Notes under the pieces: generated by a model
Seen by the model: only the letters and a program-made list of their open reading frames with translations
Databases searched by the model: none
Told to the model about the DNA's origin: nothing
Position numbers and translations under genes: made by a program
Shown: one piece after another, positions 51,708-64,000 of the stretch
How positions within the stretch are numbered: the first letter of the stretch is position 1
How the letters are laid out: each line of letters opens with the position of its first letter
From: Halosolutus halophilus
Lineage (GTDB): Archaea; Halobacteriota; Halobacteria; Halobacteriales; Natrialbaceae
Direction: 5' to 3'
DNA length: 64,000 nucleotides
NCBI RefSeq assembly: GCF_022869805.1
Contig: NZ_CP094974.1
Location: 3,038,001-3,102,000 of the forward strand

Positions 51708-52730
51708 CTAGTCGTCGTCCCTGTCCCTGTCTCTGTCCCGGGAATCGCGCGCGATCTGTTCGAGTCGGCGGCGCTGTTCGCGGTGTAACGTGACGAGCAT
51801 GTCCGAGAGGACGCCGAACATGATCAACTGGACCCCGAGCAGGATCGCGGCCGCGGAGACGAGCGCCATGATCTCGTGGCCCTGCTGGTACTGGATCCAC
51901 TGCCAGAGGACGTACCCCGCGATCACGCCGCCCGAGAGGATGCCGGCGGTGCCGAGGCTCCCGAAGTAAAACAGCGGGTTGTTCGTCTTGGCGAGCGTGT
52001 ACAGCGCCAGGATGATCGTCCCGCCGTCCGTGATCGGGTGGAGGTTCGTCTCGGACTCGTCGGGACGGGCGCTGTAACTGATCGGCACGACGGTCGTGTC
52101 GATCCCGTGTTTCACGCACTCGACGGCGAGTTCCGTCTCGATCGTGAACCCGTCCGAGTCGAGTGAGAGGCGTTCGAACGAGTCGACGGTAAACGCCCGG
52201 TAGCCCGAGAGGATGTCCTCGTAGCTGGCTCCGTGGATGAATCGGAACGCCCTGTTGATCAGCCGGTTCCCGAACCCGTTCAACGCGCGCATCGCGTCGT
52301 CGTCCATGTCGGCGAACCGGTTGCCGATCACGTGATCGTAGCCTCGCGAGAGCGGTTCGACCATCCGGTCGGCGTCGGCGGGGTCGTATGTCCCGTCCCC
52401 GTCGACCATCAACACGTAGGGGACGGTGACGTACTCGAGGGCCTCCCGGACGGCCTGTCCCTTCCCGTCGCCCGACTGGACGACGACGTCGGCACCGCGA
52501 TCGCGTGCGATCGCCTGCGTCTCGTCGTCCGAACCGCCGTCGACGACCACCACGTTCGTGTAGCCCTGCTCGCGGAAGCCGTCGATCACGTCACCGATCG
52601 TCGCCGCCTCGTCGAGCGTCGGAATCAGGACACAGACCTCGTCGGTCGAGATCTCGCGTGTCTCGTCGGTCATCGCGAGGACCTCCTGCGTTCGGTCGAC
52701 CGGGTCCACGCGTGCCCCGTCATGCTCCAT
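51708..52730 (-). CDS. aglJ: Dolichyl-phosphate hexosyltransferase, AglJ type
   Basis: The frame starts at ATG 52730; Met 52673 (MTDETREISTDEVCVLIPTL) is an alternative. The protein has 321-340 residues. GT2 domain: VCVLIPTLDEAATIGDVIDG, VVVVDGGSDDETQAIARDRG, LMVDGDGTYDPADADRMVEP (DxD-like), GNRFADMDDDAMRALNGFGN and YRAFTVDSFERL. The C-terminal half has two helices (LSGGVIAGYVLWQWIQYQQG; IMALVSAAAILLGVQLIMFG). By homology to Haloferax AglJ it loads the first sugar onto dolichol phosphate for S-layer N-glycosylation. aglM and aglF lie next to it. Confidence 0.88.
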   Translation of the reverse strand: MEHDGARVDPVDRTQEVLAMTDETREISTDEVCVLIPTLDEAATIGDVIDGFREQGYTNVVVVDGGSDDETQAIARDRGADVVVQSGDGKGQAVREALEYVTVPYVLMVDGDGTYDPADADRMVEPLSRGYDHVIGNRFADMDDDAMRALNGFGNRLINRAFRFIHGASYEDILSGYRAFTVDSFERLSLDSDGFTIETELAVECVKHGIDTTVVPISYSARPDESETNLHPITDGGTIILALYTLAKTNNPLFYFGSLGTAGILSGGVIAGYVLWQWIQYQQGHEIMALVSAAAILLGVQLIMFGVLSDMLVTLHREQRRRLEQIARDSRDRDRDRDDD

Positions 52731-52808: not shown

Positions 52809-54104
52809 TCACCAGGTCAGCCCCTCGTAGACCGCGAGATCGTCCGCGTCGACGTCGATCCGGCGACCGTCGACGACGACCCGCCGGCGCATGCCCGCGA
52901 ACGAGAGGTCGTCGAACTCGGGCCAGTCCGTCGCGACGACCGCCCCGTCCGCCGCCTCGAGCGCCGCCTCGGCCGAGTCCGCGTAGTCGACGTCGAGAGC
53001 CGGGTACTGCTCCCGGACGTTCGCCATCGCCGCGGGATCGTACGCGACGACGTCCGCACCGCGATCCGCGAGTCGATCGATCACGTCGAGCGCGCGAGAT
53101 TTCCGGATGTCGTCCGTCCCCGGTTTGAACGAGAGTCCCAGGACGGCGATCCTGGCCCCGTCGAGAGCGACGTGCTCCGCGAGGAGGGCGACGAGTCGCC
53201 GCGGCTGCTCGTCGTTGACGGCCACGACCGCGTCGAGCAGTTCGGGATCGTACCCCTGCTCGCGCGCCCCTGCACGAAGCGCGTCGACGTCCTTCGGGAA
53301 GCACGAACCGCCCCAGCCGAGGCCCGATCGGAGGAACCGGTCCGAGATCCGATCGTCGAGTCCGACGGCGTCGAGCACCTCGTAGGCGTCCGCGCCGTAC
53401 TCCTTCGCGACGTTGCCGAGTTCGTTCACCAGCGACACCTTGGCGGCGAGGAAGGCGTTGTTCGCGTACTTGATCAGTTCGGCCTCGCGAACGTCGGTCT
53501 CGACGAGGGTCGTTTCGGGACGGTCGAGAATCGGCGCGTACAGTTCCCGGAGCGTCGCGGCGGTCGCATCGGTCCTCGCGCCGACGACGACCTTGTCCGG
53601 TTCGAGGAAGTCCTCGACGGCGGTTCCCATCCTGAGGAACTCGGGGTTCATCGCGAGGTGCAGGTCCTCGTCGACGCGCTTGCCCGATCGGTCCTCGAGG
53701 ATCGGCCCGACGACGTCTTCGGTCGTCCCCGGGAGGACGGTGCTCTTGACGACGACGAGGTGGTCGTCGTCCTTTCGGGCGAGCGCGTCGCCGAGAGATT
53801 CCGCGCCAGCCCGCATGATCGCCAGATCGAGGCTGCCGTCCTCGGCCTGTGGCGTCGGCAGACAGAGCATCGTGAGGTCGGTGTCGACGACGGCTCCGTA
53901 GTCGGTCGTCGCCCGGAGGCGGCTCCCGGCGTGCTCGGCGATCAGGTCCTGCAGGCCGGCCTCGTGGATCGGTGCCTCGCCCGCGTTGATTCGATCGACG
54001 ATCTCCTCGTCGATCTCGACGTTGACGACGTCGTGGCCACGGTCCGCGAGACAGGCGGCGACGGTCGTTCCGACGTACCCGCTGCCGACGATCGAGACGT
54101 GCAT
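52809..54104 (-). CDS. aglM: UDP-glucose 6-dehydrogenase
   Basis: Met 54104 (MHVSIVGSGYVGTTVAACLA) gives 431 residues. Rossmann NAD motif GSGYVG, TMLCLPTPQAEDGSLDL, VVVKSTVLPGTTEDVVGPIL, NPEFLRMGTAVEDFLEPDKV, substrate-binding AELIKYANNAFLAAKVSLVN, the catalytic Cys in GLGWGGSCFPKDVDAL and C-terminal LGLSFKPGTDDIRKSRALDV. It oxidises UDP-glucose to UDP-glucuronate for the N-glycan, as in Haloferax AglM. Confidence 0.93.
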   Translation of the reverse strand: MHVSIVGSGYVGTTVAACLADRGHDVVNVEIDEEIVDRINAGEAPIHEAGLQDLIAEHAGSRLRATTDYGAVVDTDLTMLCLPTPQAEDGSLDLAIMRAGAESLGDALARKDDDHLVVVKSTVLPGTTEDVVGPILEDRSGKRVDEDLHLAMNPEFLRMGTAVEDFLEPDKVVVGARTDATAATLRELYAPILDRPETTLVETDVREAELIKYANNAFLAAKVSLVNELGNVAKEYGADAYEVLDAVGLDDRISDRFLRSGLGWGGSCFPKDVDALRAGAREQGYDPELLDAVVAVNDEQPRRLVALLAEHVALDGARIAVLGLSFKPGTDDIRKSRALDVIDRLADRGADVVAYDPAAMANVREQYPALDVDYADSAEAALEAADGAVVATDWPEFDDLSFAGMRRRVVVDGRRIDVDADDLAVYEGLTW

Positions 54105-54239
54105 ACGCTGTGAGATGAGGTGTAGTCGGTAGTGGTTTTTGGGTTCCGACCGGAGCGGCCCCGTCATCAAAAACGACGATCGGAGCGACTCCCGATTACC
54201 GAGAACGGCGAACTGGACGTACGGGTCCACCGGGAACGG

Positions 54240-54974
54240 CTACCGTTCGGTAACGGGTGGCGCGGCTTCCCGGAGTCGTTCTTCCGCTTTCTCGCGATCG
54301 GCTGGGTACCCGACGTCGATCCGCCAGCCGTCCATCCGGATCGCGTCGATCGTCCGGCCCGACTGGACGAGCAGATCGATCGCGTCGGGGAGTTCGTACT
54401 CGCCGCGATCGGACGGCTGGACGAGGTGACAGGCGTGGAAGATGGCTGGTGTGAAGGTGTAGAAGCCAGTCATGACGAGATTGGAGGGCGGGTCGTCCGG
54501 CTTTTCGACGACTTCGACGATCTCGCCGTACTCGTTGGTGTCGCAGACGCCGTAGCGGGAGGCCTCCTCGTAGGGCACTTCCTCGACGAGGAACGCGGCG
54601 TCCGCGCGCTCTTCCCTCTGACGGTTGATCACGTCGCCGAGGTTCCCGCGGAAGATATTATCCCCCAGCATCAGCACGAAGTCGTGATCGACGTGTGGCT
54701 CGGCCTGGAGAATGGCGTGGGCCAGACCCAGCTGTTCGCGCTGGTGGGCGTAGGTGATCGGGACGCCCTCGTACTCGTCGCCGTAGCGCTCGATGATCCG
54801 TTCTTTCTGGTAGCCCACGACGACGACGAACTCGGTGACGCCGATCTCGCGGAGGTTGTCGAAGACGTCCTCGACGAGCGGTTTGCCGTCGACTTCGACG
54901 AGGGCCTTCGGCTTGTCTTCGGTGAGCGGCCGGAGGCGGGTTCCTTTCCCCGCGGCCAGCACGACTGCTTGCAT
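54240..54974 (-). CDS. aglF: Sugar-1-phosphate nucleotidyltransferase, AglF type (copy 1)
   Basis: The protein has 244 residues. The nucleotidyltransferase signature MQAVVLAAGKGTRLRPLTED is followed by KPLVEDVFDNL, FVLMLGDNIFRGNLG (metal Asp), VEEVPYEEASRYGVCDTNEY, VEKPDDPPSNLVMTGFYTFT and ELPDAIDLLVQSGRTIDAIR. It makes UDP-glucose (or dTDP-glucose) for aglM. Lacks the C-terminal beta-helix of longer enzymes. A near-identical copy lies at 60557-61288. Confidence 0.9.
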   Translation of the reverse strand: MQAVVLAAGKGTRLRPLTEDKPKALVEVDGKPLVEDVFDNLREIGVTEFVVVVGYQKERIIERYGDEYEGVPITYAHQREQLGLAHAILQAEPHVDHDFVLMLGDNIFRGNLGDVINRQREERADAAFLVEEVPYEEASRYGVCDTNEYGEIVEVVEKPDDPPSNLVMTGFYTFTPAIFHACHLVQPSDRGEYELPDAIDLLVQSGRTIDAIRMDGWRIDVGYPADREKAEERLREAAPPVTER

Positions 54975-55192: not shown

Positions 55193-56155
55193 ATGGATCT
55201 AACGGACGCCCGTATTCTCGTCACCGGTGGTGCGGGATTCATCGGGTCCCAGCTATCCGATCGCCTCCTCGCCGACGGCAACGAGGTCGTCGTCGTCGAC
55301 GACTTCTCGAACGGCCGCGAGGAGTGGGTTCCCGCCGGCGCCGAGGTACTCGAAGCCGATCTGACCAACCGCGACGCCGTGACCGACGCGATCGACGCCG
55401 ATCTCGATCTCGTCTTCCACCTCGCCGCCCGGAAGGATCCGAACGACGACGATCCGCGCGGTCAGTTCGACGAGAACACGACGATGACGCACCTCCTGCT
55501 CGAGGCGTGTCGTGACGCGGGCGTCGAGGGGTTCGCGTTCGCGTCGTCCTCGACGGTGTACGGCGAAGCGCCGCGACCGACGCCCGAAGACTTCGCCCCG
55601 CTCGAACCGATCAGCGTCTACGGGGCGAGCAAACTCGGCGAGGAGGGACTGGTCTCGACCTACGCACACTCCCACGGACTCACCGCGTGGACGTTCCGCT
55701 TCGCGAACGTCGTGGGCCCGCGCCTTCGCGGGGCCGTCATCCCCGACTTCCTCGAAAAATTGCGGGCGAATCCGGAGTCACTCACGATCCTCGGCGACGG
55801 CCGACAGGAGAAGTCCTACCTCCACGTCGACGACTGCGTCGACGCGATGTGCCACGTCGTCGACCGCGCCGGGGCCGACGACGTGGAGTCGGACGGCGGG
55901 GCGACGTACACGTACAATCTCGGGACCCGAACGACGACGTCCGTCGATCGGATCGCCGACATCGTCAGCGACGTCCTCGACCTGGATCCCGACTACGAGT
56001 ATACCGGCGGGGATCGCGGCTGGACCGGGGACGTCCCGCGGATGCGACTCTCGATCGAGAAACTCGCGGCGATCGGCTGGACGCCGAACCTCGAGAGCGA
56101 CGACGCCGTGCGACGGGCGGCCGAGGAACTGGCCGACGAAATCGACGAGGCGTGA
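55193..56155 (+). CDS. NAD-dependent sugar epimerase/dehydratase
   Basis: The protein has 320 residues. Extended SDR: ARILVTGGAGFIGSQLSDRL (NAD), VFHLAARKDPNDDDPRGQF, FASSSTVYGEAPRPTPEDFA (Ser), SVYGASKLGEEGLVSTYAHS (Tyr-x3-Lys) and FRFANVVGPRLRGAVIPDFL. Related to GalE-type UDP-sugar 4-epimerases. TATA-like CCTTTTTC sits just upstream. Divergent from aglF; the exact sugar is undetermined. Confidence 0.87.
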   Translation: MDLTDARILVTGGAGFIGSQLSDRLLADGNEVVVVDDFSNGREEWVPAGAEVLEADLTNRDAVTDAIDADLDLVFHLAARKDPNDDDPRGQFDENTTMTHLLLEACRDAGVEGFAFASSSTVYGEAPRPTPEDFAPLEPISVYGASKLGEEGLVSTYAHSHGLTAWTFRFANVVGPRLRGAVIPDFLEKLRANPESLTILGDGRQEKSYLHVDDCVDAMCHVVDRAGADDVESDGGATYTYNLGTRTTTSVDRIADIVSDVLDLDPDYEYTGGDRGWTGDVPRMRLSIEKLAAIGWTPNLESDDAVRRAAEELADEIDEA

Positions 56156-56233: not shown

Positions 56234-57157
56234 ATGCAGGACCAGCGCGTTCTCGTCACGGGCGGTGCGGGATTCATCGGATCGAATCTCGCGAACCACC
56301 TCGCGACGGACAACGACGTAATCGTGATCGACGACTGCTATCTCGGGACCCCGGAGAACCTCGTCGACGACGTCGAATTCGCCGAGCGAAGCGTTCTGGA
56401 GGACGACCTCCCGACCGACGTGGACGCCGTGTTTCACCTCGCGGCGCTCTCCTCGTACGCGATGCACGAGGACGATCCCCGGAAAGGGGCCCGCGTCAAC
56501 GTCGAAGGGTTCGTCAACGTCGTCGAGCAGGCCCGACAGGACGGCTGTGATACCGTCGTCTACGCGTCGACGTCGTCGATCTACGGGAACCGGACCGAAC
56601 CCTCGCCGGAGTCGATGGACGTCGAGGCCCACACCGGCTACGAGGCCTCCAAACTCGCCCGCGAGCGCTACGGGGAGTACTTCGCGAACCACTACGGGAT
56701 GGCGATGGCCGGACTCCGCTTCTTTTCGGTGTATCAGGGCTACGACGGGGCAGAGGAACACAAAGGAGAGTACGCCAACGTGATCGCCCAGTTCGCCGAC
56801 GACATCGCCAACGGCGAGTCGCCGACGCTCTACGGCGATGGGACGCAGACGAGGGACTTCACGCACGTGTCCGATATCGTCCGCGGCCTCGAGTTGGCCG
56901 CCGACCACGAACTCGCCGGCGTCTACAATCTGGGGACGGGCGAGGCGTACGACTTCGATACGGTCGTCGAACTGCTCAACGAGGAACTCGGAACGGACGT
57001 AGAGCCCGAGTACGTCGAGAACCCGATTCCCGAGTCGGTATACGTCCACGATACCTGTGCTGACGCCTCGAAGATCCGCGAGGAAACCGGCTGGGAGCCC
57101 CAGATCGACTTCGAGGAGGGGATTCGACGAGTCTGTGCGCAGTATACGGCCGATTGA
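56234..57157 (+). CDS. NAD-dependent sugar epimerase/dehydratase
   Basis: The protein has 307 residues. RVLVTGGAGFIGSNLANHLA, VFHLAALSSYAMHEDDPRKG, VVYASTSSIYGNRTEPSPES, TGYEASKLARERYGEYFANH (Tyr-x3-Lys), LRFFSVYQGYDGAEEHKGEY and RDFTHVSDIVRGLELAADHE. This resembles UDP-glucuronate/UDP-glucose 4-epimerases. It follows the other epimerase by 78 bp with its own TATA-like CCTTTTTAC (56202-56210). Probably supplies a glycan precursor. Confidence 0.87.
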   Translation: MQDQRVLVTGGAGFIGSNLANHLATDNDVIVIDDCYLGTPENLVDDVEFAERSVLEDDLPTDVDAVFHLAALSSYAMHEDDPRKGARVNVEGFVNVVEQARQDGCDTVVYASTSSIYGNRTEPSPESMDVEAHTGYEASKLARERYGEYFANHYGMAMAGLRFFSVYQGYDGAEEHKGEYANVIAQFADDIANGESPTLYGDGTQTRDFTHVSDIVRGLELAADHELAGVYNLGTGEAYDFDTVVELLNEELGTDVEPEYVENPIPESVYVHDTCADASKIREETGWEPQIDFEEGIRRVCAQYTAD

Positions 57158-57503
57158 AGTGAGTCATCGCCGACCGAGGCGACTCATCGGCGCGTGTCGA
57201 GAGTTGTTGTAGAAGATGTATCGATAGCTGCGGAACGTTATCGATAGTGGCTGCGGACGCAGCGTTGCCGTGGGAACACTCTTCGTATCGAGTATGCAGA
57301 ACCTGTGTGTTCCGTCGCGATCGGTCCCAGCGCCCATCGCGTTTCGGATCGATCAGGGACTCCGCTTCCGCGTCATTCCCCGTCAAGGGCCCCTCTCCCG
57401 ACCTCCGCAGTGCGCCGCTCGGGCGCGTTCGAATCGGAGGGCACGCGGCGGTGGTCTGTAAGTAGCACATTATTATGGGACAGTCAGTGCTCCGGGCTGG
57501 TAC
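57158..57503. other. Intergenic region before the YegP-repeat gene
   Basis: No gene is seen. GACTCATCGGCG-like segments are repeated near 57169-57195, and the promoter of the next gene lies at the right end. Confidence 0.4.
57469..57477 (+). promoter_or_regulatory. TATA-like box of the YegP-repeat gene
   Basis: ATTATTATG, 27-35 bp before the GTG 57504/ATG 57507 start and the only AT-rich patch in the region. Confidence 0.45.
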
Positions 57504-60314
57504 GTGATGGCTTTCGCGCGTTCCGTACACCGACACCTGCGGCGACTCACCGAACGCGCGGTCGGTGCGCCGGACTCGACGTACGACTGTATCGCACCCT
57601 GTCTGGGCAGCGACGCACCGCGGGATTCTGCGGTCATCGCCGCCCGCGATCGGGCCCGCCAGGAGTTCACGCACCGTCTTCAGCCCGGGAGCGGCACACG
57701 GTGTCTGAGCCTACTTCTCGGCGGGCTTGGGTTGGCGTCGATCGGGATTCTCTCCTCGGGCTGGGTGGGGCAGAGTACGGGGATGGATACCGAAGTGGTC
57801 GTCATCCTGGCCGGGATCCTGATCGTCCTGAGCCTCCTCGCGTTCGCGCTCGGCCTGGCCGCGAAACGGAAATTCGTCGTCGCCGACGGAGGCGCGACCG
57901 TGACACCAGCGTTCCCGACCGGAGACACCCCGGAGAGCGCCCAGATCGCGGTGGTACAGGACGCAACCGGCGACTGGACGTGGTCCGTCCTGCATCTGGA
58001 GACCCGCGCGGAAAGCACGGACCGGGCCACGACGCGAGCGGCGGCAACGGAGCAGATCGAGCGGTTGCAGGCCACGATCGGCTCTGCCGGCCTGCTGGAG
58101 GTGTCCGAGTCGGCGTTCCGGCTGGCCGCCGATCGTGACGGGGCCTGGCGGTGGACGCTGGTACGCGCCGACGGCAGTCGCGTCAGCGCCGCCACCCGCG
58201 AGTTCGACGGCCGCGACGACGCCGAGACCGCGGTGAGTTTCCTGAAAGAGCACGGGCCCGACGCCGATCTGATCGACGTCGAGGGCGGCGCGTTCACGCT
58301 CGCCGAGCACCGCGAGCGGTGGCACTGGCAGCTGGTCGACGACGAGCGAACCCCGCTCGCCGAGAGCGAAACCGGCTACGCGGGCCAGGAGGAAGCCGAC
58401 GCTGCCGCCGAGACGTTCGCGGACCGGTTCGCCCAGGCGGAGGTGCTCGACGTCGACCACGTCGGTGTCGAACTGCACGAGCGGGGTGACGGCTGGGCGT
58501 GGCGGATCGTCGACGACGCGGACACCGTCGTCGCCGACTCGATCGGCACGTTCGACACCCGCCGGGATGCCGAGAGCGCCGCGAACGCCGTGCTTCCGGC
58601 GCTGGAATCGGTTGCGGTCATCGTCTCCGGCGAGCCGACCTTCGAGCGGTACCGGTCCGGCGGGGAGTGGCACTGGCGGCTCGTCGACGAGACCGATCAC
58701 GTCATCGCCCGATCGGCTGCCGGGACGCCGGAGCGCGGCGGCACGGACCGGGCCATCGAGCGGTTCGGGGAGACCGCCCGCGACGCGGCGGTCGTCGAAA
58801 TCGAGGCCGCGGAGTACGAGGTCTACCCCGCGTCCGAGACCGCCGAGGACCGGACCGCACCGGCGGCTGGGACCGACAGTCGATCCGCGGCCGTCGCGGA
58901 CGGTGCGGGCACGCCGGTCCCCGAAACGGCCGCGGAGACGACCGACGCCGAGTCGGGCTGGCACTGGCGACTCGTGACCGACGACCGCGAGGTCGTCGCC
59001 GCGAGTTCCGACCCCTACGCCGACGCCGAGTCGGCCAGCGCGGCGATCGAGCGGGTTCGCGAGCAGGCCCGCGACGCCGAGTTCATCGAGTTCGAGAACG
59101 CGGCGTTTCGCGTCTACGAGAGCGACGCCGGCGAGTGGCGCTGGCGGCTGCTCGACGAGGACGGGACCGTACTCGCCGACAGCGGCGCGGAACACGCCTC
59201 GCGAGGCGACGCCGCGGAGGCGATGCTGACGCTAAAAGAGCAGGCCCCCGACGCGGACGTACTGGAGATCGAGACCGCGGCGTTCGAACTGTTCGTCACC
59301 GCGGACGACGAGTGGGGCTGGCGGCTGATCGACGGCACCGGTCGACTCGTCGCCAAGGATCCAGCCACGCATCCGACCCGGGAGGCCGCCCGCGGCGCGA
59401 TGATCCGTCTGCTCGACCATCTCGAGTCGGACGTTCGCACGATGGACCGACCGATTTTCCAGGTCTCTGGAGCCGACGACTGGCACTGGCGATTCGTCCT
59501 CCCGACGGGCGAAACCGTCGCGGTCGCCGCCACCACCGATCCGACCCGGGACGCCCTCGTCGAGAACCTGTCGGCCGTCCGCGAGACCGCGGCCACTGCC
59601 GGCGACGCGTCGATCGACGACGTCGCGATCCAGCTCTACGACAGCGGCGACTGGCACTGGCGGCTGCTCGACCGCGACCGCGAGGAACTCGCCGACGGAA
59701 CGGGATCGTATCCCGATCGCGAGGCGGCGCTGGAGGCGGTCGAGACGCTCACGTCCCACGCCGACGAGGCACCGATCTTCACGATCGAGGACGCGGCGAT
59801 CCGTCTCGACGACGGCGACGGGTGGAGCTGGGACCTCGTCGATCGCGACCGCGAGGTGATCGCCAGTGCGGCCACCGCCGTCGACACCAAGAGGGAACTC
59901 GTGGCGGACATCGCCGACGTCCGTCGGCTCGCACCGCTGGCCGAACCGGTGGAGTTCGGTGTCGCGTCGTTCGACCTCGTTGCGACCGAGGACGATCGCT
60001 GGCGGTGGCAACTTCGCGACGAAGACGGACGGGTCGTCGCGATCGGCTCGGATCGCTACGACTCGAAGGAGACCGCTCGCGACGCGGTCTCGGAGGTCCG
60101 TCGGCTGATCGACCGGGCGAGCGTCCTCGCGATCGACAGCGCCGCCTTCGAACTGCACGCGGACGACGACGAGTGGGTGTGGCGGCTGGTCGACGAATAC
60201 GACTCGACGATGGTCGAGAGCACGCAGACCTACGCGACGCGCACTGCTGCTCGGGAGGCGATCGCCGATCTGAAAGCCCACGTGCCCGACGGCGAGATCA
60301 CGGTCGACGAGTGA
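57504..60314 (+). CDS. Membrane-anchored tandem YegP/DUF1508-repeat protein
   Basis: The protein has 936 residues (GTG 57504 or ATG 57507). A cytoplasmic-looking head (1-60) is followed by two membrane helices (~66-86, LSLLLGGLGLASIGILSS; ~98-120, VVVILAGILIVLSLLAFALG). From ~145 to the end come about 13 tandem units of ~58 residues, each with a W-x-W core and a helix: DGAWRWTLVRADGSRVSAAT, GGEWHWRLVDETDHVIARSA, AGEWRWRLLDEDGTVLADSG, SGDWHWRLLDRDREELADGT, DDEWVWRLVDEYDS. The unit matches the YegP/HVO_2922 (DUF1508) fold, which normally occurs as one or two copies in a small protein. An acidic linker (~445-490) splits repeat 5. Function unknown; surface or scaffold role is inferred. Confidence 0.85.
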   Translation: MMAFARSVHRHLRRLTERAVGAPDSTYDCIAPCLGSDAPRDSAVIAARDRARQEFTHRLQPGSGTRCLSLLLGGLGLASIGILSSGWVGQSTGMDTEVVVILAGILIVLSLLAFALGLAAKRKFVVADGGATVTPAFPTGDTPESAQIAVVQDATGDWTWSVLHLETRAESTDRATTRAAATEQIERLQATIGSAGLLEVSESAFRLAADRDGAWRWTLVRADGSRVSAATREFDGRDDAETAVSFLKEHGPDADLIDVEGGAFTLAEHRERWHWQLVDDERTPLAESETGYAGQEEADAAAETFADRFAQAEVLDVDHVGVELHERGDGWAWRIVDDADTVVADSIGTFDTRRDAESAANAVLPALESVAVIVSGEPTFERYRSGGEWHWRLVDETDHVIARSAAGTPERGGTDRAIERFGETARDAAVVEIEAAEYEVYPASETAEDRTAPAAGTDSRSAAVADGAGTPVPETAAETTDAESGWHWRLVTDDREVVAASSDPYADAESASAAIERVREQARDAEFIEFENAAFRVYESDAGEWRWRLLDEDGTVLADSGAEHASRGDAAEAMLTLKEQAPDADVLEIETAAFELFVTADDEWGWRLIDGTGRLVAKDPATHPTREAARGAMIRLLDHLESDVRTMDRPIFQVSGADDWHWRFVLPTGETVAVAATTDPTRDALVENLSAVRETAATAGDASIDDVAIQLYDSGDWHWRLLDRDREELADGTGSYPDREAALEAVETLTSHADEAPIFTIEDAAIRLDDGDGWSWDLVDRDREVIASAATAVDTKRELVADIADVRRLAPLAEPVEFGVASFDLVATEDDRWRWQLRDEDGRVVAIGSDRYDSKETARDAVSEVRRLIDRASVLAIDSAAFELHADDDEWVWRLVDEYDSTMVESTQTYATRTAAREAIADLKAHVPDGEITVDE

Positions 60315-60556: not shown

Positions 60557-61288
60557 TCACTCCGTCTGAACGGTAACGGGTTCCGCCAACCGCTCTTCGG
60601 CCCGATCGCGGTCCTCCGGGTACCCGACGTCGATCCGCCAGCCGTCCATCCGGATCGCGTCGATCGTCCGGCCCGACTGGATGAGCAGATCGATCGCATC
60701 CGGGAGTTCGTACTCGCCGCGATCGGACGGCTGGACGAGGTGACAGGCGTGGAAGATGGCTGGTGTGAAGGTGTAGAAGCCAGTCATGACGAGATTGGTG
60801 GGGGGATCGTCGGGTTTCTCCATCACCTCGACGATCTCTCCGTACTCGTTAGTGTCGCAGACGCCGTAGCGGGAGGCCTCCTCGTAGGGCACTTCCTCGA
60901 CGAGGAACGCGGCGTCGGCGCGCTCTTCCCGCTGACGGTTGATCACGTCGCCGAGGTTCGCACGGAAGACGTTGTCCCCGAGCATGAGCATGAAGTCGTC
61001 GTCGATGTGGGGTTCGGCCTGGAGGATCGCGTGTGCGAGGCCGAGTTGCTCGCGCTGGTGGGCGTAGGTGATCGGGACGCCCGCGTACTCGTCGCCGTAG
61101 CGCTCGATGATCCGTTCTTTCTGGTAGCCCACGACGACGACGAACTCTGTCGCACCGATCTCGATGAGGTTGTCGAAGACGTCCTCTATGAGGGGTTTCT
61201 CGTCGACTTCGACGAGGACCTTCGGCTTGTCTTCGGTGAGCGGCCGGAGGCGGGTTCCCTTTCCGGCTGCTAAAACGACTGCTTGCAT
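60557..61288 (-). CDS. aglF: Sugar-1-phosphate nucleotidyltransferase, AglF type (copy 2)
   Basis: The protein has 243 residues and differs from the copy at 54240-54974 at about 18 positions in the first 235 (for example KVLVEVDEKP against KALVEVDGKP), then at the C-terminus. All motifs are kept (AGKGTRLRP, LMLGDNVFRANLG, VEKP-equivalent MEKPDDPP). The DNA is also highly similar over most of its length. It supplies the same or an alternative NDP-sugar. It is monocistronic. Confidence 0.9.
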   Translation of the reverse strand: MQAVVLAAGKGTRLRPLTEDKPKVLVEVDEKPLIEDVFDNLIEIGATEFVVVVGYQKERIIERYGDEYAGVPITYAHQREQLGLAHAILQAEPHIDDDFMLMLGDNVFRANLGDVINRQREERADAAFLVEEVPYEEASRYGVCDTNEYGEIVEVMEKPDDPPTNLVMTGFYTFTPAIFHACHLVQPSDRGEYELPDAIDLLIQSGRTIDAIRMDGWRIDVGYPEDRDRAEERLAEPVTVQTE

Positions 61289-61658: not shown

Positions 61659-62639
61659 TTATCGATATCCGAGGTCACGAAGGTGTTCTTTGATATCCGT
61701 CCCGGTGGTCGAATTGACCTCGATATCGGGTTCGCGCGTGTGTTCATTGCGTGCTGTCGTCTCTACCCAAGGGACTTTCCGGACGACCGGATGCGGGAAC
61801 CCTTCGGGGTGGCCGTAGGCTTTCCACTCGCCGAACGCTTCGCCATGATCGGAGGTGATAACGACCTTCTCGGCGTCGATGTTCTCTAGAAGTTCCGCTA
61901 CGTCGTCGAGCACCCATCGGAGCGTTTCCACGTACGCCTCGTACACCTCGTCGGTGGACCCGCGGCCTTCCTCGAGGATTTCGTAGCCACGGTCCTCGAG
62001 ATCGGTGGCTTCCCGCCCCTCGCGGTACGCGGTGCCGACGTACGGGAGGTGTGGCTGAGTGTAGTGCGCGATAATACGGTTGGCGTCGCCGTTTCGCCCG
62101 ACCTCGATGGCGTGATCAGTCATCGGTCCGGGGAGCACCGATCCGTACGTTTCGTCGTGGTTCGTCTCCCACACCTCTATGTGAGAGTTGAGTGCGGATT
62201 CATCGACCGTCGACCACGACGAGAAATCGACAGGGATCGTGTTGTTTGCTGGTGGGTATCTCCCACGCTTCAGCACGGCACCACTAAAGCCGTTCCCTGA
62301 GATGTATGTCGTATTTCCGATCTCGTCGCGCCACGATTCCGTGAACGTGTTCGCCATCCACTCGGCGGACTGGCTGCCGACCGACCAGACGCTGTTCACT
62401 TCCTCAATGAAGTCGTATTCGTCGGCCACCTCACGGAGCGCGTCCACACGGCACGCGTCGAGGATGATCAGGAGGTCCCAGTCTGACCTGTAGACGTTTT
62501 TTCCGAACGGCCAGCGAGACGTTACGGCGTACCAGATGGTGAGATAGAGCGTGAATACGACGTAGAGGAGCGCACGTTTCGGGCGCTCGCGGATGTGCTC
62601 ACGCATCTCCGAGAGCCATGCACCGAGATTGGTCTCCAT
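61659..62639 (-). CDS. Alkaline phosphatase/sulfatase-superfamily membrane protein
   Basis: Met 62639 (METNLGAWLSEMREHIRERP) gives 326 residues; a frame to 62663 also exists. One helix (ALLYVVFTLYLTIWYAVTS) anchors it. Alkaline phosphatase-superfamily marks: WDLLIILDACRVDALREVAD (metal Asp), QPHLPYVGTAYREGREATDL, and VVITSDHGEAFGEWKAYGHP (metal Asp-His). It is shorter than classical sulfatases and lacks the Cys/Ser-x-Pro-x-Arg site, so the reaction may be a phospho- or sulfo-transfer to surface glycan. Confidence 0.85.
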   Translation of the reverse strand: METNLGAWLSEMREHIRERPKRALLYVVFTLYLTIWYAVTSRWPFGKNVYRSDWDLLIILDACRVDALREVADEYDFIEEVNSVWSVGSQSAEWMANTFTESWRDEIGNTTYISGNGFSGAVLKRGRYPPANNTIPVDFSSWSTVDESALNSHIEVWETNHDETYGSVLPGPMTDHAIEVGRNGDANRIIAHYTQPHLPYVGTAYREGREATDLEDRGYEILEEGRGSTDEVYEAYVETLRWVLDDVAELLENIDAEKVVITSDHGEAFGEWKAYGHPEGFPHPVVRKVPWVETTARNEHTREPDIEVNSTTGTDIKEHLRDLGYR

Positions 62640-62698
62640 CACATCCCCGTAGCCAACACCCAAATAAGTAGACGATGATATTCCTCTCGACAGTTGAC

Positions 62699-64000
62699 TT
62701 AAAGGTATCCCAGCTCTTCGAGTTTCGACTCGACGGCGGCGTCAACGTCCGCTGTCTTCCCATCGGCTCTCATGTCTCCGATATCCCTCGTGAACAGTCC
62801 GGTGGCGTCCGCCGGGATGAGGTCCGGGTCGCCCTTGTGTTCTAGGACGTATTCGCCACCGTTACGTTCGTAGTGGCGCGCCACACCGAGCGAATTCCAG
62901 ACGTACTTTGACGCGCCGTCGTCGAGGTATACGCATCGGGACATGCGGTTCCAGTAGTCAAAGTCCTCATGGTCACTCGGAGGATGTGCGACGCCGAGGC
63001 CGGCGACTTCTGCGGTGAGTGGCTGGCGTTTCTCGAACTCGGTCTCAGTAGCGATTGCCGTGACGAGGTTCCCGAGGTCCAAGTGGGATATCGGCTTGGA
63101 TTCGTCCACGGAGAGGTCAGCATTGATGACGGTGAGCGGCACGTGCAGAAGTGTTTCCGCCATGTCCGGCGTAACGTGACCGAATCGCCGCCCACCGGTT
63201 TCATCATCGAGTTGTTCGCCGTGGTCGGCCGTGACGACAACAGCCGTGTCGTCGTCGACCCGCTTGCAGAACTCGGCGACCCGTCGAGTAGTGTACTCCA
63301 CGGCAGCAGCGTAGAGGTCTCGATAGGAAGCGATGTCTTCCTCGTGTTCGTCGAACGTGCCGTCCATGTTCATCGCCAACGCATCGATGTCCGGACTGCG
63401 GTTGCGGTGTTCCTTCGCAATCAGCGACTGATCGTAGCCGCGGACGTTCGTCAGCGGCCCGTGGGCGTCCATAATGTTCACGAACACGAACATCGGCTGC
63501 TCTGACTCGTCCAGTACGCGGCGTGTACGCGACAGGATTCGCTTGCAGCCGTCGTCGAAGGGCTTCACCACTGGGAGTTTCTGGAACAGGTTCTCCGTCT
63601 GGGATGCGACCCCATTTGCTAAGCTTTTCACGGGGTGGTCGTGTTGAACACACAACTTGAGAAATTCAATGTAGCGAGTCCAGTCCTCGGTCGAAGACTT
63701 GTGCCAGAACTTCGATGGCGACAGGCCCTCGGTGTAAGGCATCGAGGATTCGACGTGATAAAAGTCGTCGAAGAGTTTGTCGAAACCGAATACCGGGCTC
63801 GCGTATGGGTTCGCGCTCACGCCGACGAACCGGAAGCCCTCGAGATCCGAGAGGAACGTGTCCTCGCGATCGAGATCGCTGAACGCCGGCGTGGCGGAGT
63901 GGAACCCGTGTTCGTGGGGTAAGACGCCCGTGAACATACTCGCGTGGCTCGGAACGCTCCACGTACTCGCTGTCCGGCACTCTTCGAAGGAGTGGGACGC
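62699..64000 (-). CDS. Sulfatase-family protein (partial, 5' end beyond window)
   Basis: The frame is open across the window edge, so the start is missing; Met 63937 is internal. At the edge SHSFEECRTASTWSVPSHAS and MFTGVLPHEHGFHSATP give the sulfatase active-site region, with Ser in place of Cys (S-V-P-S-H rather than C-x-P-S-R). Further marks: FVFVNIMDAHGPLTNVRGYD, AVVVTADHGEQLDDETGGRR, HVPLTVINADL. At least 434 residues. It may modify surface polysaccharide. It starts upstream of the other sulfatase-like gene on the same strand. Confidence 0.87.
   Translation of the reverse strand, partial: ASHSFEECRTASTWSVPSHASMFTGVLPHEHGFHSATPAFSDLDREDTFLSDLEGFRFVGVSANPYASPVFGFDKLFDDFYHVESSMPYTEGLSPSKFWHKSSTEDWTRYIEFLKLCVQHDHPVKSLANGVASQTENLFQKLPVVKPFDDGCKRILSRTRRVLDESEQPMFVFVNIMDAHGPLTNVRGYDQSLIAKEHRNRSPDIDALAMNMDGTFDEHEEDIASYRDLYAAAVEYTTRRVAEFCKRVDDDTAVVVTADHGEQLDDETGGRRFGHVTPDMAETLLHVPLTVINADLSVDESKPISHLDLGNLVTAIATETEFEKRQPLTAEVAGLGVAHPPSDHEDFDYWNRMSRCVYLDDGASKYVWNSLGVARHYERNGGEYVLEHKGDPDLIPADATGLFTRDIGDMRADGKTADVDAAVESKLEELGYL

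Follow-up and report, generated by a model that had tools for sequence, protein, structure and literature searches.

A derived haloarchaeal membrane protein with thirteen DUF1508/YegP-like units encoded in a glycosylation cluster of Halosolutus halophilus

The window (the whole stretch of 64,000 nucleotides of Halosolutus halophilus DNA that was analysed) contains a gene for a membrane protein with 13 DUF1508/YegP-like units (Table 1). This gene is the derived copy B within an old family of haloarchaeal proteins, which carry an array of 13 units on a DUF7139 membrane domain; the array is predicted to be cytoplasmic. In the reading that we favour, to which we give slightly less than an even chance, the protein would be a membrane-tethered, two-armed scaffold or spacer whose length is fixed, and unit 7 would be its docking position. 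The number of tandem repeats usually changes fast; notable in this family are the constant number of 13 units, the conservation of the central one and the existence of two genomic addresses.

Table 1. Positions of the array gene, its parts and the neighbouring genes in the window
Feature	Position	Strand	Remarks
aglJ, S-layer glycoprotein N-glycosyltransferase	51708..52730	-	
aglM, UDP-glucose 6-dehydrogenase	52809..54230	-	homology begins at ORF residue 43
aglF, second copy	54240..54974	-	profile match
NAD-dependent sugar epimerase/dehydratase	55193..56155	+	
NAD-dependent sugar epimerase/dehydratase	56234..57157	+	immediately upstream of array gene
TATA-like element TTATTA	57470..57475	+	37 nt 5' of copy B ATG
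Copy B array gene	57507..60311	+	935-aa protein, ATG start (most likely); stop codon 60312-60314
N-terminal segment MAFARSVHRHLRRLTERAVGAPDS	57507..57578	+	aligned counterpart of copy A N-terminus MSFKTDLHQDLFRLYERYVGEPDS
First membrane helix	57696..57767	+	predicted helix 64-87; counterpart of DUF7139 TM3
Second membrane helix	57789..57869	+	predicted helix 95-121, core followed by positive KRK; counterpart of TM4
Array of 13 DUF1508/YegP-like units	57936..60311	+	W-x-W, unit profile, AlphaFold2
Variable insert in unit 6, between strands 1 and 2	58830..58952	+	residues 442-482, pLDDT about 30
Unit 7, exact array middle (6+1+6)	59094..59267	+	top conservation in copies A, B and between families
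aglF, UTP-glucose-1-phosphate uridylyltransferase	60557..61288	-	convergent with array gene

Array gene, membrane helices and predicted fold

The initial annotation had taken 57504-60314 as the open frame of the gene. The frame, which is on the forward strand and uninterrupted over 936 codons, was retained, whereas the start was moved: translation most likely begins at the ATG at 57507 and not at the GTG at 57504, because this ATG opens the N-terminus common to the paralogue in the host genome (copy A) and sits 37 nt past the TATA-like TTATTA. A TATA-like element of similar kind and spacing was found 5' of most relatives (51 of 66 loci with a loose pattern). Coding on the opposite strand was ruled out, as stops break the frame.

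Both hydrophobic helices of the window protein are N-terminal of the array, with hydrophobic cores at residues 66-84 and 97-115, in agreement with the two membrane helices annotated earlier. In the alignment with copy A the DUF7139 helices TM1-TM2, which are expected after MAFARSVHRHLRRLTERAVGAPDS, were absent, and a Pfam profile search gave no match of DUF7139 (PF23600) to the window protein at E up to 1.

The units start at residues 144, 201, 260, 317, 375, 475, 530, 589, 647, 704, 761, 819 and 877 (ATG numbering), and 13 W-x-W motifs are located at residues 158, 215, 273, 331, 389, 486, 545, 604, 660, 717, 774, 833 and 891. Their spacing is 56-59 residues with a single gap of 97 residues, which is due to the insert of ~39 residues in unit 6; in 2000 shuffles of the protein W-x-W occurred 0.7 times on average and 4 times at most. 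The protein matched Pfam DUF1508 (PF07411) with E=4.6e-70 and 231.7 bits, well over the curated cut-off of 22, and NCBIfam HVO_2922 (NF041908) with E=3.7e-72 and 238.3 bits (cut-off 90) in 11 separate stretches; the solved structure closest in sequence to the array was HVO_2922 (6q2z). A Pfam match to FtsQ/DivIB (28 bits), of which no separate stretch passed, and a match to tryptophan-tRNA ligase were judged to be by-products of the repeats.

An AlphaFold2 model of the window protein was calculated from an alignment of 39 sequences (mean pLDDT 80; most units 85-97; dip at units 6-8). According to DSSP assignment of this model, each of the 13 units is predicted to consist of strand-strand-strand-helix-strand, with small strand-assignment lapses in units 6-8; this succession is the core of the YegP-like fold (PMC2954219). 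The AlphaFold2 model of a copy A protein gave the same picture with four long N-terminal helices added, and its confidence also dipped at units 6-8 (pTM of the two models 0.62 and 0.51). This drop in both models would fit two arms with a hinge. Foldseek searches with the window model returned YegP, SO3888 and HVO_2922 at probability 1.00 (2k8e, 2k49, 6q2z), and the about 13 YegP/DUF1508 repeats with a W-x-W every ~58 residues that had been read from the sequence were recovered by profile search and structure prediction as 13 units with a repeated YegP fold. Further Foldseek matches to beta-propellers and toxins were discarded (low probability, huge rmsd).

Two-unit proteins were superposed on the array model with a TM-score of 0.42 and an rmsd of 13.5 Å, one HVO_2922 unit with a TM-score of 0.72. 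Because the two-unit proteins superpose poorly while the single unit fits, adjacent units, though YegP-like, may well be arranged differently from those of the YegP pseudo-dimer. The odd unit number does not fit complete pairing of units, and a unit pair as evolutionary building block was rejected, since similarity between units of the same parity showed no excess (0.219 vs 0.232). The structure matches have very large rmsd, and rigid arms are what the models would suggest for the array. Every unit of the array resembles the small HVO_2922/YegP/UPF0339 proteins (PF07411, NF041908; 6q2z, 2k8e, 2k49, 3bid) in sequence and predicted fold; these proteins, unlike the array protein, consist of one unit or two and lack membrane helices.

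Distribution, unit number and relatives of the array

Copy A (G000:C1:2913782-2916379, L002/P0002) consists of DUF7139 (PF23600, a four-helix membrane domain, E=1.1e-42) and the DUF1508 array. It shares the 13 units and their order with the window protein, is 57% identical to it over residues 67-935, and has a related N-terminus and a similar TATA-like element; it differs in having four helices and a full DUF7139 and in being located between CoA genes, whereas the window protein has two helices and is encoded beside aglF.

A survey of 392 genomes of the order included 96 of the same family, 74 of which had a long-array match at or below 1e-100; the long array was absent from the other 22 and is therefore dispensable. 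In further haloarchaeal families arrays were found within open frames of 930-1100 aa. No long array from outside the order was among the matches listed for a phylum-wide sample, and a viral scan returned short DUF1508 matches only. DUF7139 was detected in 372 of the 392 genomes, the best matches being ~300-aa open frames without array; the domain is mostly found in membrane proteins of ~300 aa that have no DUF1508 units (L033-L062; host C1:2859247-2859696), with about three DUF7139 matches per genome in Natrialbaceae. Copy B on a plasmid of Natrialba magadii is recorded as 'DUF1508 domain-containing protein'. The suggestion that the architecture is exceptional was thus given up: 13-unit arrays are common in haloarchaea, DUF7139 is already in Pfam and copy B already in records. 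The architecture is not rare, is covered piecewise by Pfam and belongs to a widespread, unstudied family, for which the taxonomic and neighbourhood survey yielded 13-unit arrays in several families and two recurrent gene addresses. Literature searches on the function of HVO_2922 or YegP yielded structure citations and expression lists only, and nothing was found on DUF7139. DUF1508/YegP has solved structures, and the large, conserved membrane form, with its recurrent position in genomes, offers a handle on the family.

For unit counts, a unit profile was built from the array family and run on the ORFs of relatives. Exactly 13 units were counted in all 75 distinct complete long-array ORFs, from several haloarchaeal families, and the count holds down to about 35% identity. 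Apart from a five-unit type found mostly in Halorubrum (L111-L125), other counts came from contig ends and from two genes that are broken (L095, L110); L097 was at the detection limit, with 13 units in one scan and 12 in the other. In the Halorubrum-type proteins, too, DUF1508 units follow a DUF7139 membrane domain, but there are only five of them, and these proteins are not linked to the genes for pantoate kinase (PoK) or 4-phosphopantoate-beta-alanine ligase (PPS); in L112 the membrane domain is separated from the units by a segment with weak matches to coiled-coil models.

Each unit of the window protein was most similar to the unit of the same number in relatives (13 of 13 units). Because unit k matches unit k in all relatives and the count is constant, the array was most likely put together once, before the families split, and would have been frozen since. 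Between families, mean pairwise identity was 0.67 for unit 7 and 0.36-0.54 for the other units; within copy B unit 7 reached 0.74, and within Natrialbaceae copy A 0.90. Unit 7 was also closest of all units to free-standing HVO_2922 (best NF041908 stretch). The invariant 13, the frozen order and the highest conservation in the central unit point to an assembly defined by length or symmetry.

The Anabaena protein Cis12 (All3315, 7b5h chain AD) resembles the arrays in its DUF1508-like repeats and its membrane-contacting extension. Cis12 residues 961-1161 matched the array with a profile E=2.8e-5 and, as a 201-residue piece, Pfam DUF1508 with E=1.2e-7; Foldseek gave probabilities of 0.99 and 0.90 for chain 7b5h AD. 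Cis12 is a baseplate protein of a phage-tail-like contractile injection system and has no predicted membrane helix; its extension (residues 610-1,100) forms a wide connector to the thylakoid membrane (PMC8894136); YegP is not mentioned in the text of that paper (PMC8894136). The DUF1508/YegP-like repeats of Cis12 overlap this membrane-connector extension. Another baseplate protein, Alg12 (9wsz/7aeb), gave a weak DUF1508-like match (E about 0.6). In contrast to Cis12, the haloarchaeal arrays had no recognised injection-system genes beside them, and those neighbours that were identified were CoA, tRNA-ligase, Agl and other housekeeping genes. The match places YegP-like repeats in a connector protein, which does not make the haloarchaeal protein one; it suggests that two very different settings make the same structural use of the module.

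Proposed role of the array

In the favoured reading, the array would act as a fixed-length, two-armed scaffold or spacer held at the cytoplasmic membrane. Twelve units would form two arms of six, and unit 7, in which the ancestral HVO_2922-like sequence is retained, would be the likely docking site of a partner, which is conjecture. Copy B, having shed two helices and been re-housed by aglF, may position a sugar-nucleotide or N-glycosylation partner at the membrane, equally a conjecture. Given how unequal the units are, binding sites that are all alike and set in a row fit less well than a scaffold or spacer; a filament on the outer surface fits least, because of the topology.

It is possible, though rather doubtful, that the number of repeats is itself what matters: the cytoplasmic arm, fixed at 13 units (6+1+6) across haloarchaea, would be a ruler or clamp that sets the distance between a partner and the membrane, built from the kind of module found in Cis12. 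If this were true, the odd number 13 would be a functional requirement, for example if no other number of units allowed the superstructure to close or to be balanced.

A multivalent array, with a small-molecule site in every unit (for a nucleotide, a CoA precursor or a sugar nucleotide, for example) and the protein as a membrane-bound store or sensor, is unlikely. W-x-W is present in nearly all units across 24 copy A proteins, and the enzymes encoded near copy A and copy B synthesise CoA precursors and UDP-sugars, respectively, but the tryptophans may be mere core residues, conservation between families is very uneven (0.36-0.54 against 0.67 for unit 7), and no ligand of any DUF1508 protein was found in the literature searched. 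The repeated binding module considered in the initial annotation is weakened by the same finding, as the units are not equivalent and unit 7 is far more conserved.

Genomic setting and topology of the two copies

Copy A is located between PoK and PPS on the same strand, often at distances of 50-500 bp. This order was found in nearly all Natrialbaceae, in Halorubellus (Halorubellaceae), in Salinarchaeum (Natronoarchaeaceae) and in two further families, with AspS and TyrS genes farther out. Such a position would suit a protein that regulates or anchors CoA synthesis by bringing PoK and PPS to the membrane, copy B having taken a related task; we hold this to be improbable, since PoK and PPS are adjacent, with a gap of 42-152 bp, in ten relatives without array, the array is found away from PoK/PPS in L105, L106 and L161-L165, and copy A is preceded by its own TATA-like element. 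As most of the array-less genomes checked keep PoK and PPS adjacent, CoA synthesis is independent of the array, and copy A is a clean insert into, or loss from, the PoK/PPS gene pair. In other array-less genomes the PoK-PPS distance was larger or the genes were unlinked. The idea of copy A as an operon member was weakened by its own TATA-like element and its clean absence elsewhere.

The window copy is located inside a glycosylation cluster, as annotated at the outset; the cluster contains aglJ, aglM and aglF, the last in two copies. This setting holds for the derived copy B and not for the ancestral copy A, which is found among CoA-synthesis genes. Both aglF genes of the window exceed the AglF equivalog cut-off, and they flank the epimerases and the array gene. 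Two sulfatase/alkaline-phosphatase-like genes (61659-62663 and 62699-63937) lie beside the cluster. Copy B was close to aglF in four lineages including that of the window: aglF was convergent at 79 bp in Halopiger goleimassiliensis and at 171 bp in the genome G128, and in the Halobiforma lineage its distance was 2.9-4.4 kb. A genome of the same genus has kept aglJ, both epimerases and copy B, and aglF only as a short remnant (L148 13794-13919, downstream of copy B; 69% over 42 aa), the gene being seemingly lost. No aglF was found beside copy B in L109, L149, L152, L154 and L156. Most economically, the duplicate would have landed beside aglF and the linkage was later lost in places; the linkage could reflect inherited position rather than function.

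The tree grouped all second copies (12 including the window gene) in a single clade with SH-aLRT 100, which lay inside the copy A sequences of Natrialbaceae; copy B thus most likely arose from one duplication, followed by patchy loss. All copy B proteins checked lacked two or three DUF7139 helices, and some of them (L107, L149) showed no more than one clear helix. The dN/dS ratio was 0.39 between the window copy B and its same-genus orthologue, 0.34 for a second copy B pair and 0.24 for a copy A pair; copy B evolves faster than copy A, yet is under purifying selection. The faster evolution (0.39 vs 0.24), the loss of two membrane helices and the patchy presence (11 of the 96 same-family genomes) could also be those of a decaying duplicate held by drift, whose place in the glycosylation cluster would be meaningless. 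We judge this to be distinctly unlikely, as purifying selection continues, stops are absent, and the 13 units, most W-x-W motifs and the TATA-like element are all retained.

Topology was predicted from hydropathy and charge. In the window protein both outer helix flanks carry a charge of +2 and the loop -2, and the TM2-TM3 loop of copy A has a net charge of about +3. Positive charge flanks the helices on the N-terminal and array sides, so the positive-inside rule predicts a cytoplasmic N-terminus and a cytoplasmic array in both copies. The envelope role considered earlier is disfavoured by this prediction, in which charge distribution and helix number place the array and both ends inside. An array outside the membrane that binds or organises the S-layer or glycans, as the neighbouring aglJ, aglM and aglF might suggest for the window copy, is very improbable given these positive charges, including those of the copy A loop, the single N-x-S/T sequon in the window protein and the position of the ancestral copy away from glycosylation genes. 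The host genome further encodes a 210-aa protein with one C-terminal HVO_2922-like unit (FEVYQDRAGEWRWRLVHWNGNILADSGEGYTSR; L168 1489-2121, reverse strand), a possible free partner of the array.
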